Of a DNA stretch of 64,000 bases, positions 8,587-58,597 are shown piece by piece; the first letter of the stretch is position 1, and each line of letters begins with the position of its first letter. The DNA comes from Porphyromonas sp. (GTDB lineage: Bacteria > Bacteroidota > Bacteroidia > Bacteroidales > Porphyromonadaceae), in assembly GCF_030529325.1 (NCBI RefSeq), contig NZ_JAUMXC010000004.1:1-64000 (forward strand), in the 5' to 3' direction. Both the position numbers and the translations under genes were made by a program. The notes beneath the pieces were generated by a model, which worked only from the letters and a program-made list of their open reading frames with translations, was not told the DNA's origin and ran no database searches.

Positions 8587-8598
8587 CATAAAAAGAAA

Positions 8599-8660
8599 AA
8601 GGCTGTCTCACGACAACCTTCAATCTAATATTAACCTAAAATCTAATACTATGAAAAACA
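8599..8660 (-). ncRNA. Candidate small RNA or attenuated leader
   Basis: A well-placed promoter (8666-8695) faces leftward, and about 45 nt past its start a hairpin with a T-run follows: stem 8599-8607 / 8612-8620 with one G-U pair, then TTTTTCTTTTT. That would release an RNA of about 60-75 nt, or act as an attenuator for the radical SAM gene 90 nt further on. On the opposite strand the same stretch contains a short MKNTMQR reading frame, which I do not think is translated. Structure is seen; the function is inferred. Confidence 0.5.
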
Positions 8661-8665
8661 CAATG

Positions 8666-10188: not shown

Positions 10189-10659
10189 CATGATCAATGT
10201 TGAGTGAATAGCCAATACTACCGGGAGACTCCGACTCATGAGAGCAAACAGAGGGCCTCCTTGGGATAGTGACTTATCGCAAAGATATCATATTTTTTCA
10301 ATATCCGTCTGTCAGGAGACATCTCAAAGGGTCTGAAAAAGGTTGTCTAACTTGCATTATCAAGTTAGACAACCTTTTTCATCAAGTTAGACACATTCAT
10401 TTCGATGGTTCTATATCCTCCTCAAAACATCACCTGAAAAGGAGTCGAAAAAACGCTGGGCACTTTGTAAAAATAGACTAATCAAATAAGATATAAACAC
10501 CGGAAGCATCGATGTGTACGAACCGACATTTTCGACTACGTGGCACTAAATCATACTCCCTATATGCCCAAGATTTATTATATTAGCAAATCTTTAGCCT
10601 TTCGGGACTAAGGAGAGATAACAGTCTATCAATATTATATTAACATTTTAAGTAATACA
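10189..10659. other. Divergent intergenic region
   Basis: A 470-nt stretch between the minus-strand DUF3108 gene and the plus-strand C69 dipeptidase. It carries one 22-nt module element (10336-10403) and otherwise AT-rich sequence. Promoters for both flanking genes must lie here, but I see no full consensus match. Short ORFs in it show no support. Confidence 0.5.
10336..10403 (+). repeat. 22-nt module element with 19-bp hairpin
   Basis: A perfect 19-bp stem, 10336-10354 with 10361-10379, starts AAAAAGG and ends CCTTTTT, so it also looks like a terminator on both strands. The right arm is module one (10360-10381); a second direct module, CAAGTTAGACACATTCATTT, fills 10382-10403. Same family as the copies at 3114, 17949, 21473, 28705, 40865, 47109, 51955 and 58020. 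Confidence 0.85.
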
Positions 10660-17739: not shown

Positions 17740-17948
17740 GCGCAATATAGAATTATTTCTACATTAAATCCTCGATCTATCCATTCGTTTCTCAAGATAT
17801 ATCGCACTTGTTTACAACAGGATGTTTCACCACACGAAATGACATCAAAATGGCTTATAAATCCTCCCTAAACAATCAAAGATCAGCAAGAGAGATACAA
17901 CGTTTAGTTGAGGAACAGCCTCATTATATGCACTGTTGAGAACGCTGA

Positions 17949-18015
17949 AAAAGGTCGTCTAACTTGAAGTATTAATATGGCTACCTTGACTCATCAAGGT
18001 AGCCATATCGATTTT
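17949..18015 (+). repeat. 22-nt module element with hairpin
   Basis: A perfect 15-bp stem, 17975-17989 with 17994-18008 (core CTACCTTGA / TCAAGGTAG), with an additional inverted module (GTCTAACTTGA) at 17956-17966 before it. The direct module is 17994-18015. Same family as the other dispersed copies. Confidence 0.8.
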
Positions 18016-21146: not shown

Positions 21147-21697
21147 TGGTCGAAAAAATTAGTGTATATATTAGATGGTTGTTTTTGTCCAACAATAGTA
21201 CTTGTATTCAATTTCGCGTCAAAGTTAGTCATTAAAATGATATATAAGCACTAATCTTCAAGAATTTAATATCAACCAAAAAATTCTTCTATTTTTCCCC
21301 GATTATTTTTACACTTTTCTGCTTGTCCCGGACCTCTTTATCGACACTTTGGATTTAGTTTATAGCACTTTAGAGGGGATTGACTCCAATACTCACCATC
21401 CGAGAGCATCGATAAGAGCACAAAGACTCCGAGGTCAAAACCGCACTCCCTCACACAATTCTCTACGCTCACAAAAAGGTTGTCTAACTTGAGATGTCAA
21501 GTTAGACACATTGATTCATCAAGGTAGGCACATCGATTTCGAAGGTTCTACTTCTTGTTTTTTTGCACAGACCGACTCACGAGACTCAGACGGGCATACA
21601 CTCATGCCGGTTTCCGCCTCAAAAGCAAGAAAACAGCTATATTTGCTGCAAGAAAATAAAATAAATTCTCACGAAATTTCAAAATCCAATCATCCGA
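21147..21697. other. Divergent intergenic region korA / YD lipoprotein
   Basis: 550 nt with the korA leader on the left, a 22-nt module element at 21473-21540 and AT-rich sequence before the lipoprotein gene. No gene is supported; a 108-codon plus ORF overlapping the lipoprotein start is a frame shadow. Confidence 0.5.
21473..21540 (+). repeat. 22-nt module element
   Basis: An inverted arm TGTCTAACTTG (21481-21491) pairs with CAAGTTAGACA (21498-21508). Two direct modules follow in exact register: 21497-21518 (GTTAGACA type) and 21519-21540 (GGTAGGCA type). It ends with GAAGGTTCTA, as several other copies do. Confidence 0.85.
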
Positions 21698-28704: not shown

Positions 28705-28773
28705 AAAAGAAGATGTCTACCTTGATGAGTCAAGGTAGGCATCTTCTTTCATCAAGGTAGGCACATTGTTTTG
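28705..28773 (+). repeat. 22-nt module element with ~20-bp hairpin
   Basis: Left arm 28706-28725 (AAAGAAGATG then TCTACCTTGA) pairs with 28730-28749 with one G-T wobble and a 4-nt loop. Direct modules are 28730-28751 and 28752-28773. It lies between convergent genes. Confidence 0.85.
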
Positions 28774-28893
28774 TTACCTTCTATATCTTTTGTCAGATAC
28801 CCAATAGACATCCCGATACTATTAGATCCGAAAAAGGAGACTCTTGAAGAAAGAAAGCTGATGCTTCACAAGGAAATTGTCGAGAGTCATTAC

Positions 28894-40707: not shown

Positions 40708-40864
40708 CGTACACACCTCTGATCGGTTGACTTTATCAGGACTTGACAACGAAAAAAAATCAAAGTGATTGGGTTCTGACACTGATCTTCCTCTCCGGCA
40801 AAGGCACTATGCCACGATATCAATTAAGAGTGTCAGACAAAGAAAGAAAAGATGTACATCTCTC

Positions 40865-40910
40865 CAAATCGATGTGCCTACCTTGAGAAATGAAGGTAAA
40901 GATCTTTTTC
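40865..40910 (-). repeat. 22-nt module element, reverse orientation
   Basis: One clear module on the minus strand (complement of 40865-40886, core CAAGGTAGGCACATCGATTT) preceded by a diverged inverted arm (40889-40910, GAAGGTAAAGATC). A short, partly decayed copy. Confidence 0.7.
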
Positions 40911-47020: not shown

Positions 47021-47367
47021 ACCCAAATACAGATGCCAAGAGTCTCGACCCTTCGACTCTTGGCATCTGTGTTTCATAGGGCTTTGAGCCAAAGGGGGTG
47101 CATCCGTCAAAATCAATGTGCCTACCTTGGTCAATCGATATACTTACCTTGATGTATCAAGTTGGACAACTTTTTTGTGCCTTTGACAACCTCATTCTCA
47201 AGTCAGAAACACCCATGAAAACGCACTTAAGATTAGTCTGAACAAGTTATGGCAAGGTGAGAGAAAAATACAGACAAAGCCTCAGACCGGAGCCCCTCAA
47301 CTTCAACAAAGAGGAGGCTTGACAACTTCTTGACATTCTCCAACATCCAAATAAACAACCATGACAG
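47021..47367. other. Gap separating effector and adaptation cas genes
   Basis: 347 nt with no gene and no CRISPR repeat. It contains a 22-nt module element on the minus strand (47109-47176). Two ribbon-like short inverted repeats just after cas7 (GCCAAGAG 47036-47043 with CTCTTGGC 47057-47064) form a possible terminator stem, but without a T-tract. Confidence 0.55.
47109..47176 (-). repeat. 22-nt module element inside the cas locus
   Basis: Two direct modules on the minus strand, the complements of 47109-47130 (CAAGGTAGGCACATTGATTT core) and 47131-47152 (diverged, GGTAAGTATATCGATT). An inverted arm (47155-47170, ATCAAGTTGGACAAC) makes the usual hairpin with the adjoining module. T-run at 47171-47176. 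Confidence 0.85.
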
Positions 47368-49328: not shown

Positions 49329-49351
49329 TAGGGATTTAATGATCAAATCAC

Positions 49352-49430
49352 TTAGGGGTGCTGTACGTTGTACGGCTGAGAACAAACCCTTGGAACCTGA
49401 GCGGATAATCCCGGCGTAGGAAAAGTAATG
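49352..49430 (+). promoter_or_regulatory. TPP riboswitch (THI element)
   Basis: The hallmark blocks are all present in order: TTAGGGGTG, CTGAGA (49376-49381), ACCCTTGGAACCTGA (49386-49400), CGGATAATCCCGGCG, and GTAGGAAAAG. This is the thiamine pyrophosphate-binding aptamer, which in bacteria reduces expression when TPP is plentiful. The aptamer's 5' strand TAGGGGTG (49354-49361) has a perfect complement CACCCCTA at 49480-49487, a candidate partner for switching. A small stem, TGAGGG/CCCTCA (49445-49462), lies between. No clear T-run terminator follows. Confidence 0.93.
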
Positions 49431-49582
49431 CAACATATCGGCCATGAGGGCAGAGTCCCTCACACCTTTCTAAAAAACTCACCCCTACATCATATATCTT
49501 CGTCAGTATCACAGGGTACCCTGCGTGTTGGAGGTCATTTGGATCGTCCATTACTAACAAACTAAAAACATTACTGACAATA

Positions 49583-51910: not shown

Positions 51911-51954
51911 CGATATGAATCAGACTCAGAAAAGTGACAAGCAAATATCCGGAG

Positions 51955-52037
51955 AAAAAGTTGTCTAACTTGATGTCGCAAGGTAGGCATATCGATTCGT
52001 CAAGGTAGGCACATTGATTTCGAAGGTTGTCTACCTT
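51955..52037 (+). repeat. 22-nt module element
   Basis: An inverted module GTTGTCTAACTTGA (51960-51973) is followed by two direct modules in register, 51978-51999 and 52000-52021, of GGTAGGCA type. GAAGGTTGTCTACC closes it, another partial inverted module. The copy lies between two convergent terminators. Confidence 0.85.
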
Positions 52038-52062
52038 TTTGAGATAAGCAGTCCAAAGACAT

Positions 52063-55768: not shown

Positions 55769-57796
55769 TTATTTCTTTTTGAGCATTTTAGTCACCTGCT
55801 TCACCACGTTTTCAGGAGTAAAGCCGAGTTTTTCATCGAGGACCTTGTATGGCGCCGAGAAGCCGAACGACTCAAGTCCCCAGATACTACCCTGACCTGC
55901 TACCAAGCCTTCGAGTGTGACAGGCAGGCCGGCAGTAAGACCAAAGCGAAGCACACCCTTAGGAAGCACTGCATCCTGATACTTGGCACTTTGATTTCTG
56001 TATAGCCCTTCTGAAGGCACAGAAACCACCTGGGCTTTGATTTTCTTCTTGGCAAGGAGATCTGCTCCCGCCACGAGTGTAGAAACTTCCGAACCACTTG
56101 CAAGGAGCACGACATCCGGATTCTCTACCTCACGCACGACATACGCCCCCTTGGCAACTCTCTTTGACTTGCTATAAGTATTGCCGGGCAGGTCATCGAT
56201 ATTTTGACGCGAAAGGATGAGAGCCGTAGGAGTCTTGGTATTTTCCATTGCCAACTGCCAAGCCACTGTAGTCTCATAGACGTCTGCAGGACGGAGGGCA
56301 AGCAACGAATTATCTCCCGAGTGATTTTTGAGTTTTTCAAGGAGTCTGATCTGTGCCTCTTGCTCTACAGGCTCGTGTGTAGGGCCATCCTCTCCGACAC
56401 GGAAAGCATCGTGAGTCCACACAAACTTTACAGGGACTTCCATGAGGGCCGCCATACGAGCAGCAGGCTTGATATAATCCGAGAAGACAAAGAACGTACC
56501 ACAAGCGGCAATGACACCACCATGGAGAGCCATACCTATACAGAGACAAGCCATCGTAAACTCGCTTACACCTGACTGGAGGAAACCTCCGGAGAAGTCA
56601 TTGCGCATGATGACCGAAGTATTTTTCAAGAATCCATCGGTCTTATCGGAATTGGACAAGTCCGCACTTGAGACCACCATATTAGGAACTTGCTGAGCAA
56701 GATAACCGAGCACTGTTGCCGAAGCTGCACGGGTAGCTTGATTGGGCTTTTGTACAATCGACTTCCAATCTACCTTAGGAGCCTCATCTGAGAGCCAAGA
56801 GTCCAACTCTGCAGCAAGAGCAGCGTTGCTTTTTCTCCACTCGTTGTATTCCTTTTGCCACTGTTTGCACTCATCTTTGAGAGCTTTTTGTCTGTCAGCA
56901 TACATCTTTTTGACATCATCAAAGATGACAAACGGATTGTCGGGATTTCCTCCCATACCCTTGATTGTAGTCGCAGCACAAGCTCCGGCAGCAGACAAAG
57001 GCTGTCCGTGAGTTGAAACCTTATTTTCGAAAGACTGCCCTTCAGCACCCTTTGCGCCCTTACCCATTACGGTCTTACCGATGATGAGGGTAGGCTTGCC
57101 TACCACTGCGATAGCCTTGTCAAGAGCCTTACGTATCTGGTCATGATCGTTGCCATCTATTTCGATGATCTCCCAGCCCCAAGCTCTGTACTTCATCGCC
57201 ACATCTTCTGAGGTCACTTCATCTACTGTGGTAGAGAGCTGGATATTGTTGGCATCATAAAACATCACGAGGTTGTCGAGGCCCAAGTGTCCTGCGATAC
57301 GTCCCGCGCCCTGAGATATCTCTTCCTGTATCCCACCATCGGAGATAAACGCAAATATGCGTTGTCTCATGATCTTGCCAAACTTCGCCTCCATCTTCTT
57401 CGCTGCGATTGCAGCCCCGACGGCATACGTATGCCCCTGACCAAGAGGACCTGAAGTGTTTTCTACTCCTCTTTTGACATCTCTTTCAGGGTGTCCGGGA
57501 GTGACACTCTCCCACTGACGGAAGTTCTTGAGGTCATCCATACTATACTTACCATGCATGGATAGTGTCGCATAGAGCATCGGCGACATGTGCCCGGGAT
57601 CGAGGAAAAATCTATCACGAGCAAACCACTCAGGGCTCTCGGGATCAAAGACCATGTACTCTGCAAAAAGCACTTGTGCAAAGTCCGCACCTCCCATGGC
57701 ACCACCCGGGTGTCCGGATTTTGCCTTCTCCACCATCGAAAGAGCGAGGATACGGATGTTGTCCGCCGCCCTTAGACTAAGTTGTTTTTTATCCAT
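55769..57796 (-). CDS. tkt: Transketolase
   Basis: A 675-residue ThDP enzyme from the Met at 57796 (MDKKQLSLRAADNIR); a further 23 codons upstream look untranslated. It moves two-carbon units between sugar phosphates. Motifs are SGHPGGAMGGADF (residues 26-38), GPLGQGHTYAVG, the ThDP motif from SDGGIQEEISQGA to NLVMFYDANNIQLS, and THDAFRVGEDGPTHEPVEQ near residue 455. Full length. It heads an operon with rpiB. A TAAATTTG box (complement of 57876-57883) lies 80 nt upstream. Confidence 0.95.
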   Translation of the reverse strand: MDKKQLSLRAADNIRILALSMVEKAKSGHPGGAMGGADFAQVLFAEYMVFDPESPEWFARDRFFLDPGHMSPMLYATLSMHGKYSMDDLKNFRQWESVTPGHPERDVKRGVENTSGPLGQGHTYAVGAAIAAKKMEAKFGKIMRQRIFAFISDGGIQEEISQGAGRIAGHLGLDNLVMFYDANNIQLSTTVDEVTSEDVAMKYRAWGWEIIEIDGNDHDQIRKALDKAIAVVGKPTLIIGKTVMGKGAKGAEGQSFENKVSTHGQPLSAAGACAATTIKGMGGNPDNPFVIFDDVKKMYADRQKALKDECKQWQKEYNEWRKSNAALAAELDSWLSDEAPKVDWKSIVQKPNQATRAASATVLGYLAQQVPNMVVSSADLSNSDKTDGFLKNTSVIMRNDFSGGFLQSGVSEFTMACLCIGMALHGGVIAACGTFFVFSDYIKPAARMAALMEVPVKFVWTHDAFRVGEDGPTHEPVEQEAQIRLLEKLKNHSGDNSLLALRPADVYETTVAWQLAMENTKTPTALILSRQNIDDLPGNTYSKSKRVAKGAYVVREVENPDVVLLASGSEVSTLVAGADLLAKKKIKAQVVSVPSEGLYRNQSAKYQDAVLPKGVLRFGLTAGLPVTLEGLVAGQGSIWGLESFGFSAPYKVLDEKLGFTPENVVKQVTKMLKKK

Positions 57797-58019
57797 AACT
57801 GTCTGGTAAAATGTATAGTATATTTGACAATAATTTGCTGAGTCGGAATAATCCGATGTCACCACAGACTATGGCACAAATTTACTAAAAAAACATGACT
57901 ACCTATGTAGAGACTCGATAGCTTAACCGCAAAACCGTTCTCTACCCCTCTACCATAATATTCGGACTCATCAAATGGCATAAAAACGACAGTTTCAAAA
58001 AACAATCCGATCTGATACA

Positions 58020-58129
58020 CCAAGGTAGGCACATTGATTTATCAAGTTAGACAACTTAATTCGTCAAGGTAGGCACGTTGATTTATCAGGTTAGACAACT
58101 TAATTCATCAAGGTAGGCACGTTGATTTG
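58020..58129 (+). repeat. Five-module 22-nt tandem array (longest copy)
   Basis: Five modules of exactly 22 nt: 58020-58041, 58042-58063, 58064-58085, 58086-58107, 58108-58129. They alternate in type: modules 1, 3 and 5 carry GGTAGGCAC(A/G)TTGATTT; modules 2 and 4 carry GTTAGACAACTTAATTC. The block is followed by GAGTTGTCTGAC, a partial inverted module. There are no unique spacers between modules, so it is not a CRISPR array. Confidence 0.9.
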
Positions 58130-58443
58130 GAGAGTTGTCTGACGTCTATGAAAATGAAGAGCAATCATAAAAAGAAAGGAGAGAAGTCTACAATAATCAT
58201 AAGCTGAAAAATCCATTACCATCCATCATTAAGACCAAACACTGTAGCTAAAGAAGAAGTAAAAAGCAAACAACATCTAACAACTCTTAAAAAATATTTC
58301 ATTCAAATATCTTGCTTCTATCATCACCACCATTTTGGTGCACCACCCTTAGGTTCAATCTATTATAGAGACATTGACACGAAAATCAGCGTACTCGATA
58401 GGAGTACAGATGAATCTGGAGACTATAAATAGTGGCACAAATG

Positions 58444-58475
58444 TTTGGAAATTTGAGATTTTTGTGCGAACTTTG
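58444..58475 (+). promoter_or_regulatory. Promoter of tRNA-Cys
   Basis: TTTG at 58444-58447 and GAACTTTG at 58468-58475 (7 of 8 matches to TAnnTTTG) are 20 nt apart. The tRNA starts about 40 nt after the -7 box. Confidence 0.6.
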
Positions 58476-58514
58476 CAGTGCAGTTGAGTAAGACTTGATG
58501 TTTGCATTTTGTTT

Positions 58515-58585
58515 GGTTCCTTGGCCGAGTGGTTAGGCACCGGTCTGCAAAACCGTTTACGGCGGTTCGAGTCCGCCAGGAACCT
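58515..58585 (+). tRNA. tRNA-Cys (GCA)
   Basis: A 71-nt cloverleaf with acceptor GGTTCCT / AGGAACC, anticodon loop TCTGCAAAA giving anticodon GCA, T-loop GGTTCGAGTCC, and discriminator T as expected for Cys. CCA is not encoded. A hairpin terminator follows at 58598. Confidence 0.96.
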
Positions 58586-58597
58586 CCCCTCCCCCCG

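Follow-up and report, generated by a model that had tools for sequence, protein, structure and literature searches.

What is a phased array of five short modules doing beside a tRNA gene in a Porphyromonas genome? Positions 58020-58129 of the window, by which we mean the whole stretch of 64,000 nucleotides analyzed here, hold five contiguous 22-nt modules in the order A-B-A-B-A, all on the forward strand. The array is real: Tandem Repeats Finder reports periods of both 44 (95% matches, score 195) and 22 (67% matches, score 111) at 58021-58128, and the 22-nt register is kept without any indel. Over a 20-nt core, the type A units 1 (58020-58041), 3 (58064-58085) and 5 (core at 58108-58127) are identical to each other at 18-20 of 20 positions and the type B units 2 (58042-58063) and 4 (58086-58107) at 19 of 20, against 13-15 of 20 between A and B units; successive 44-mers agree at 40/44 and 41/44 positions. 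The register and the distinction of modules 1, 3 and 5 from 2 and 4 thus stand as given in the initial annotation of this DNA, as do the flanks, namely an ORF at 55769-57865 (reverse strand), which was read as a transketolase from its sequence without a family search, and tRNA-Cys at 58515-58587 (forward strand).

The array is not a CRISPR array, as its 20-nt cores are parted by 2-nt linkers only, without unique spacers. Rfam 15 gives no match at the gathering score at the array, and none at E<=1 in 57900-58300; elsewhere in the window it recovers FopS, a family of paralogous Bacteroidetes small RNAs (8589-8661, reverse strand, 69.8 bits), and a TPP riboswitch (49344-49439, forward strand, 63.1 bits). 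Matches to viral contigs comprise 26 stretches with one exact 16-mer each, which we take as chance, and at least 20 of 41 phage records match solely over tRNA-Cys (20 being those among the matches listed).

A modular element dispersed through the genome

With up to 3 mismatches allowed, the A pattern has 12 matches in the window against an expectation of 0.01, which excludes chance and makes the array a member of a family. Genome-wide, the same threshold yields 194 matches to the A pattern and 251 to the B pattern, the two sets overlapping, and none to a reversed control pattern. At up to 4 mismatches, the first 464 kb contain 139 units forming 55 groups (reversed control, 2), and 32 of these groups share a single plan, in which two direct units follow an inverted one, or the mirrored arrangement. 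We aligned 30 of the 32 with 120-nt flanks, leaving out two that lay too near the end of a stretch; conservation is limited to column 1 to about 86, with little outside. The consensus of the 30 copies runs AAAAARGTTGTCTAACTTGA (the inverted arm), a 4-nt loop, TCAAGTTAGACAACTTNATT, CA, TCAAG(T/G)TAG(A/G)CACATTGATT and a 20-nt tail. The plan of the element is thus an inverted arm, a 4-nt loop, n direct 22-nt units and a 20-nt tail, with n=2 (86 nt) in most well-matched copies and with both A- and B-type units occupying the two unit slots. Other spans fall on a 22-nt ladder: 64 nt with one unit (six cases), 108 nt with three (three cases) and, for the focal element, 152 nt with five. Off-ladder spans of 60, 74, 79, 81, 85, 87 and 88 nt are seen among weaker matches.

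A covariance model, R1, built from the aligned standard copies and used to search the genome (2.18 Mb in 93 contigs), returns at least 148 matches; at least seven of those listed are the second strand of another match, leaving, as a lower bound, about 140 or more loci. In the window it finds 86-nt copies at 10336-10421 (92.0 bits), 21473-21558 (95.1 bits), 28706-28791 (93.0 bits) and 51954-52039 (83.4 bits) on the forward strand and at 17928-18013 (70.0 bits) and 47091-47176 (69.1 bits) on the reverse strand, together with a 64-nt copy with one direct unit at 40847-40910 (reverse strand, 46.9 bits). The family is confined to a narrow lineage. The sister species genome (G002) has 20 model matches and ten other genomes of the genus have none; riboflavin synthase marks G002 as the nearest relative, at 90% identity versus 67-75% in the rest. 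The named genomes that match best at this gene belong to Porphyromonas (67%), which places the organism near that genus. Across the family's other genus (26 genomes), one match to the B pattern at 2 mismatches stands against two for the control, that is, nothing above chance. The element is short, non-coding, repeated, intergenic and able to fold, all of which are traits of miniature inverted-repeat transposable elements (MITEs). Several contigs of the present assembly (G000) begin or end inside a copy, e.g., C73:1-51, C79:1-50, C90:1-78 and C5:99405-99462, implying that some copies break the assembly.

The focal array as an expanded copy

The initial annotation overlooked that the sequences on both sides of the array are parts of the same element, which spans 152 nt in all (57996-58147, forward strand). 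Model R1 matches it in two pieces, 57998-58059 (33.9 bits) and 58063-58147 (44.1 bits). A decayed inverted arm (57996-58015, reverse strand) is followed by a loop (58016-58019) reading TACA; arm and loop together (57996-58019) agree with the consensus at 13 of 24 positions (P 0.0034 against random 24-mers of the same DNA) and with the corresponding segment of another copy of this genome, C4:14161-14268, at 17 of 24, a level reached by 0 of 20,000 random 24-mers. Downstream of the unit 5 core, two bases previously counted as a linker open the tail (58128-58147), which ends at model position 86 (58147) and is identical to that of the C4 copy at 13 of 20 positions, the first 11 bases included.

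This C4 copy, an A-B-A version with the same GATACA motif at its loop, also bears on how the array grew. With one 44-nt AB pair removed, the focal element is identical to it at 91 of 108 positions, compared to 57 and 62 of 108 for two other 108-nt copies. The earlier proposal that growth proceeded by a 44-nt AB pair rather than by a single unit is therefore supported, and a 44-nt AB duplication in an ABA copy is the likely origin of ABABA, to judge from the sequences compared. The accompanying expectation of AB pairs elsewhere in the genome holds in that A/B pairs occur, but A-A and B-B copies are also common. At the orthologous site opposite L060:6605, the sister has 42 nt with no direct unit against 86 nt with two units here, both lengths being counts made by eye on the alignment and on the model match. 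This site and the spans of 64-152 nt indicate that unit number changes in 22- and 44-nt steps, which are usable as length markers.

Hence, we read the focal array as a module block that has expanded within a single copy of a dispersed, modular intergenic element specific to this lineage. Our confidence, which applies jointly to the whole explanation developed below, somewhat exceeds an even chance.

A predicted hairpin between the arm and the first unit

The inverted arm and the first direct unit, which meet at a junction of 24 rather than 22 nt, form a predicted hairpin of 16-20 bp. In the 30 aligned copies, two-sided changes that keep the pairing fill 16 cells, whereas shuffles average 5.9 and none of 500 reaches the observed number, and all slid controls lie below the observed covariation; on one of the five measures, the number of pairs with a two-sided change, the observed 6 against 3.8 was reached by 27 of 500 shuffles. 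These shuffles ignore relatedness, and arms and units fall into A and B subfamilies. The pattern supports a constrained arm/first-unit hairpin short of proof, and template-switch correction of imperfect palindromes would yield the same pattern. If the arm is paired with the second unit rather than the first, the signal does not rise above shuffles. Self-hairpins of single units do so on some measures only, a result that largely reflects the A/B subfamily split and to which we give little weight. The units themselves are 7-4-7 palindromes whose arms vary together (TCAAGTT..AACTTGA, TCAAGGT..ACCTTGA), with T-A at positions 6/13 in 66 and G-C in 34 of the 139 units. Folding z-scores are -3.2 to -7.7 in five standard copies and -4.0 in the focal copy.

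Such stable predicted hairpins, with an A-tract on one side and a T-rich end on the other, would also suit transcription terminators or RNA-level elements that end transcripts or stabilize mRNA. This reading we consider very improbable, given the lack of an Rfam match, the loss of the arm in the focal copy and the genomic placement of the family as a whole.

Placement relative to genes

In 837 kb, 101 model matches at E<=0.05 and 62 at E<=0.01 reduce to 92 distinct copies once those that overlap are merged by hand. Nine copies at stretch ends were left unclassed; 79 of the remaining 83 lie between predicted genes, although intergenic DNA makes up 11% of the sequence, and the other four overlap predicted ORFs of 107-159 aa, taken as spurious (genes were called with a simple ORF picker instead of a trained gene finder). 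The 79 intergenic copies comprise 46 between codirectional, 22 between divergent and only 11 between convergent genes, against 104, 27 and 20 gaps without a copy (p=0.19), and between codirectional genes 24 copies point with the genes and 22 against them. The absence of bias in context or orientation argues against a general promoter or terminator role.

It also bears on the proposed significance of the focal locus. A local multi-site operator for transketolase or tRNA-Cys could be envisaged, as the array sits in a divergent gap and its five units keep a register of roughly two helical turns. However, the same units recur at about 140 or more loci; moreover, the sister locus (3.6 kb), where tRNA-Cys and the riboflavin synthase gene stay together and transketolase fails to align, was found to hold no unit. 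We regard such an operator as extremely unlikely. With the array belonging to a family of about 140 or more loci that shows no preference for context or orientation, there is no support for a special importance of the setting between transketolase and tRNA-Cys, nor for the suggestion that the array as such would be a multi-site protein-binding platform. The argument that 22-nt spacing places all units on one face of the helix is likewise weak, as the inverted junction measures 24 nt and the direct units number only two in the majority of well-matched copies.

Copies exclude each other over about 3.5 kb

An unexpected result is that the copies avoid each other. The smallest of the 73 neighbor spacings within contiguous stretches of the 837 kb is 3,545 nt, and none falls below 3,000. 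When gaps are picked at random, a mean of 17.7 spacings fall below 3,000, with none of 5,000 runs giving less than 7; the corresponding mean and lower limit are 15.2 and 6 (3,000 runs) if gaps are weighted by their length, and 21.9 and 10 (5,000 runs) under uniform placement. If a minimum gap length of 100, 150, 200 or 250 nt is required, the element itself being subtracted, 11.1, 9.4, 8.1 and 5.7 are expected against 0 observed (p at most 0.0005, 2,000 runs), the signal fading at floors of 300 nt (3.0 expected, p=0.04) and 400 nt (0.5, p=0.57). The same exclusion can be restated by counting gaps 150 nt or longer: among those within 3.5 kb of another copy, 76 of 77 are empty and 1 is filled, as against 75 of 117 filled farther away. 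A model-free scan for units gives a minimum spacing of 3,525 nt with no control hits at 3 mismatches; a looser scan at 4 mismatches has one close pair at 1,738 nt, which we take as chance because the reversed control gave 6 hits at 4 mismatches and 0 at 3. Among the matches listed genome-wide, 27 further spacings have a minimum of 3,614 nt, some of which missing copies could have enlarged. Some close pairs could be hidden at contig ends of the draft assembly, but most of the expected pairs would have to be so hidden.

Unusually for repeats of this type, then, the copies examined exclude each other over a distance of about 3.5 kb. It is an exclusion and not a ruler: the spacings minus 3,500 nt, an offset picked after seeing the data, are near exponential (CV 0.89, KS p=0.15). 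Two sister matches lie about 100-250 nt apart (L255:19683-19974) and two others 1,581 nt apart, beside a transposon, so the exclusion is claimed for the present genome only. The literature covered, which left aside most subscription journals and all preprints, yielded neither a 22-nt family of this kind nor an exclusion distance in such repeats. The available main text of a review on MITEs is without the words 'immunity', 'evenly' or 'spacing' and has pneumococcal repeats bunched together (PMC10969869).

One way to obtain such an exclusion is to purge close pairs of a selfish repeat by selection or recombination instead of by target immunity. Since modules of both orientations are present in every copy, any two copies do share matching modules in direct as well as inverted arrangement. 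Nevertheless, the limit is sharp at about 3.5 kb, and neighbors in the same and in opposite orientation (32 and 41 pairs) have equal spacing, with medians of 8,048 and 8,046 (p=0.93), a point weakened by the mixed modules of each copy. We hold purging to be improbable. A second and better alternative is that the copies are functional chromosome-wide sites, whose palindromic units are bound by a host protein such as a nucleoid, topology, partition or DNA-uptake factor, with about one copy per several kb being useful and crowded copies being lost. The exclusion distance combined with high occupancy outside it (75/117 vs 1/77 gaps), the 7-4-7 palindromes with arms varying together and the conserved arm/first-unit hairpin are all in line with this. 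On the other hand, usefulness alone sets a largest distance and not a smallest one, no orientation or context rule is apparent, ten of the twelve genomes of the genus are without a match while the sister has few, and copies are absent at 9 of 11 orthologous sites. Such sites accordingly strike us as a doubtful but by no means negligible explanation.

Comparison with the sister genome and the question of mobility

The 11 sites come from the 57 copies that lie in the first 464 kb, which were compared with the initial 400 kb of the sister genome; most of the sites have a single anchored flank. At nine of them the sister has no unit-like sequence within 400 nt, the best 12-mers having 2-3 mismatches as in shuffled sequence, and at two it holds a copy. 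For one copy (L063:15514) two anchors point to different places in the sister, both empty; another (L049:7682) was left out of the count, its expected sister position being outside the compared stretch. The enlarged set of 92 copies (800 kb) was compared with the sister for two-sided anchors only. Sister stretches taken at regular steps contain 3 matches in 400 kb, compared to 35 copies in 373 kb here, some of the latter stretches having been picked with knowledge of hit positions. Both comparisons indicate that most tested copies were gained in this lineage or lost in the sister.

The gap L062:15599-15684, with its two-sided anchored ortholog L290:11887-11950, falls outside the 11-site count, as an element-like hairpin occurs in both species and is too different to count units. 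In the present genome its arms make up another long palindrome (AAGGAACGGAACTTT / AAAGTTCCGTTCCTT) and look as though they had been rewritten jointly. Gene order relative to the sister breaks at two gaps holding copies, L063:15388-15783 and 57866-58500 of the window.

The 30 aligned copies give no signal of a target-site duplication, and no clean empty site was found: two copy-free sister sites anchored on both sides are not clean, the best-anchored one differing by about 200 nt instead of 86. The ends of the element, AAAAAGGT and ACCTTTTT, form an inverted repeat of only about 8 bp, and no transposase with ends matching the element was found. Loci for DDE_Tnp_1 and mutator transposases are present, mostly cut by contig ends, and for none of them could element-like ends be shown. 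Transposase fragments lie near some copies; copies occupy a large share of big gaps anyway. In the sister, at L149:5264-7097, two copies flank an IS256-family transposon, a lead that was set aside, as the transposon's own ends (AAAAAGTGTGTAAG) differ and the copies lie outside it. They are part of a direct repeat of 253 nt (96% identical) that borders this transposon on both sides almost to the base, resembling an unusually long duplication; besides the element in its sister version, the repeat contains a second perfect hairpin. A separate MITE-like repeat, about 145 nt long, is present in five 89-96% identical copies (L281:5075-5219, L052:10910-11054, L050:14430-14573, L060:1688-1832 and L272:12341-12488), with inverted ends GGGCAACCACATCAAAA / TTTTGATGCGGTTGCCC as read in L281 and no Rfam match. 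Four of these five lie 37-150 nt from an element with 22-nt units, a proximity biased by the search having begun at element flanks.

A proposed history of the family

Mobility of the element we infer from these patterns. The element would have spread as a non-autonomous, MITE-like repeat whose spread or retention was barred near an existing copy, most simply by a rule resembling target immunity. The predicted hairpin of at least 16 bp between the arm and the first unit may be recognized by the spreading machinery or by the host. Once at a locus, the element could gain or lose units through slippage or unequal recombination, in steps of 22 or 44 nt, and the focal ABABA would have arisen from an ABA copy through one 44-nt AB duplication. 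Target immunity is known from Tn3, Mu and Tn7 as a cis-acting bar on nearby insertion that creates an exclusion zone. By analogy, immunity of this kind would be the simplest mechanism here, with no transposase linked to the element.

In sum, we modestly favor a modular dispersed element of the BOX/BrickBuilt kind, whose spread or retention is barred near another copy. More tentatively, the copies can be viewed as chromosome-wide intergenic landmarks, with a sharp exclusion of about 3.5 kb and most larger gaps outside it filled; this would point either to a host chromosome-organizing or DNA-recognition system recruited from a repeat, or else to a tiny repeat under target immunity of a few kb. 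Should target immunity be at work, a hidden transposition machinery can be sought; should the copies have a function, they would point to a chromosome-scale site in a Porphyromonas-like lineage.

Relationship to known repeat families

REP/BIME elements, which are associated with RAYT transposases, share with the present family short palindromic units, inverted pairs and more than a hundred intergenic copies; they differ from it in that the units here are 22-nt direct tandem ones. Mobilization by a RAYT was considered and rejected, as the Y1 transposase domain (PF01797), detected in 5 of 14 control genomes, has 0 matches in the present assembly, which is 94% complete. To Tn3-derived miniature elements we find no link, be it to such a transposon, its ends or its target duplication.

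BrickBuilt of P. gingivalis, as described in the available text of its report, is strictly intergenic and confined to one species group, with tandem 23-nt units in variable number between a leader and a tail (PMC4596501). Its bricks were our first lead. The 23-nt brick, AGAYCATARTATCCTCTCRTRTG, matches the units at best at 10-11 of 23 positions, where shuffled units average 11.1-11.7, and has two lone 4-mismatch hits only in 837 kb; the IS5-type GAGACC.../...GGTCTC terminal inverted repeats occur in 0 of 30 copies when the stretches beside the ends are inspected. The family is thus ruled out as BrickBuilt by brick sequence and ends, and tandem units in variable number between a leader and a tail at intergenic sites constitute a likeness of plan only. 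The dimensions differ as well, with 19 BrickBuilt copies of up to 22.8 units and long leaders and tails, as opposed to about 140 or more copies of mostly 86 nt here; the same text also cites an earlier genome report for 22-nt tandem repeats of P. gingivalis W83 whose location is not given (PMC4596501).

The BOX elements of Streptococcus pneumoniae, in the available account, also place end modules around a middle module in variable number, with more than 100 intergenic copies, predicted hairpins and a lineage-restricted distribution (PMC3049150). The likeness is drawn from the plan and not from the boxA-boxB-boxC sequences, and the two probably differ in sequence and in module sizes; moreover, pneumococcal repeats cluster and insert into one another (PMC3049150), whereas the copies here exclude each other. 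Modular dispersed repeats such as BOX and BrickBuilt are already known; a family of about 140 or more loci with a hard spacing of about 3.5 kb was not encountered in the literature covered.
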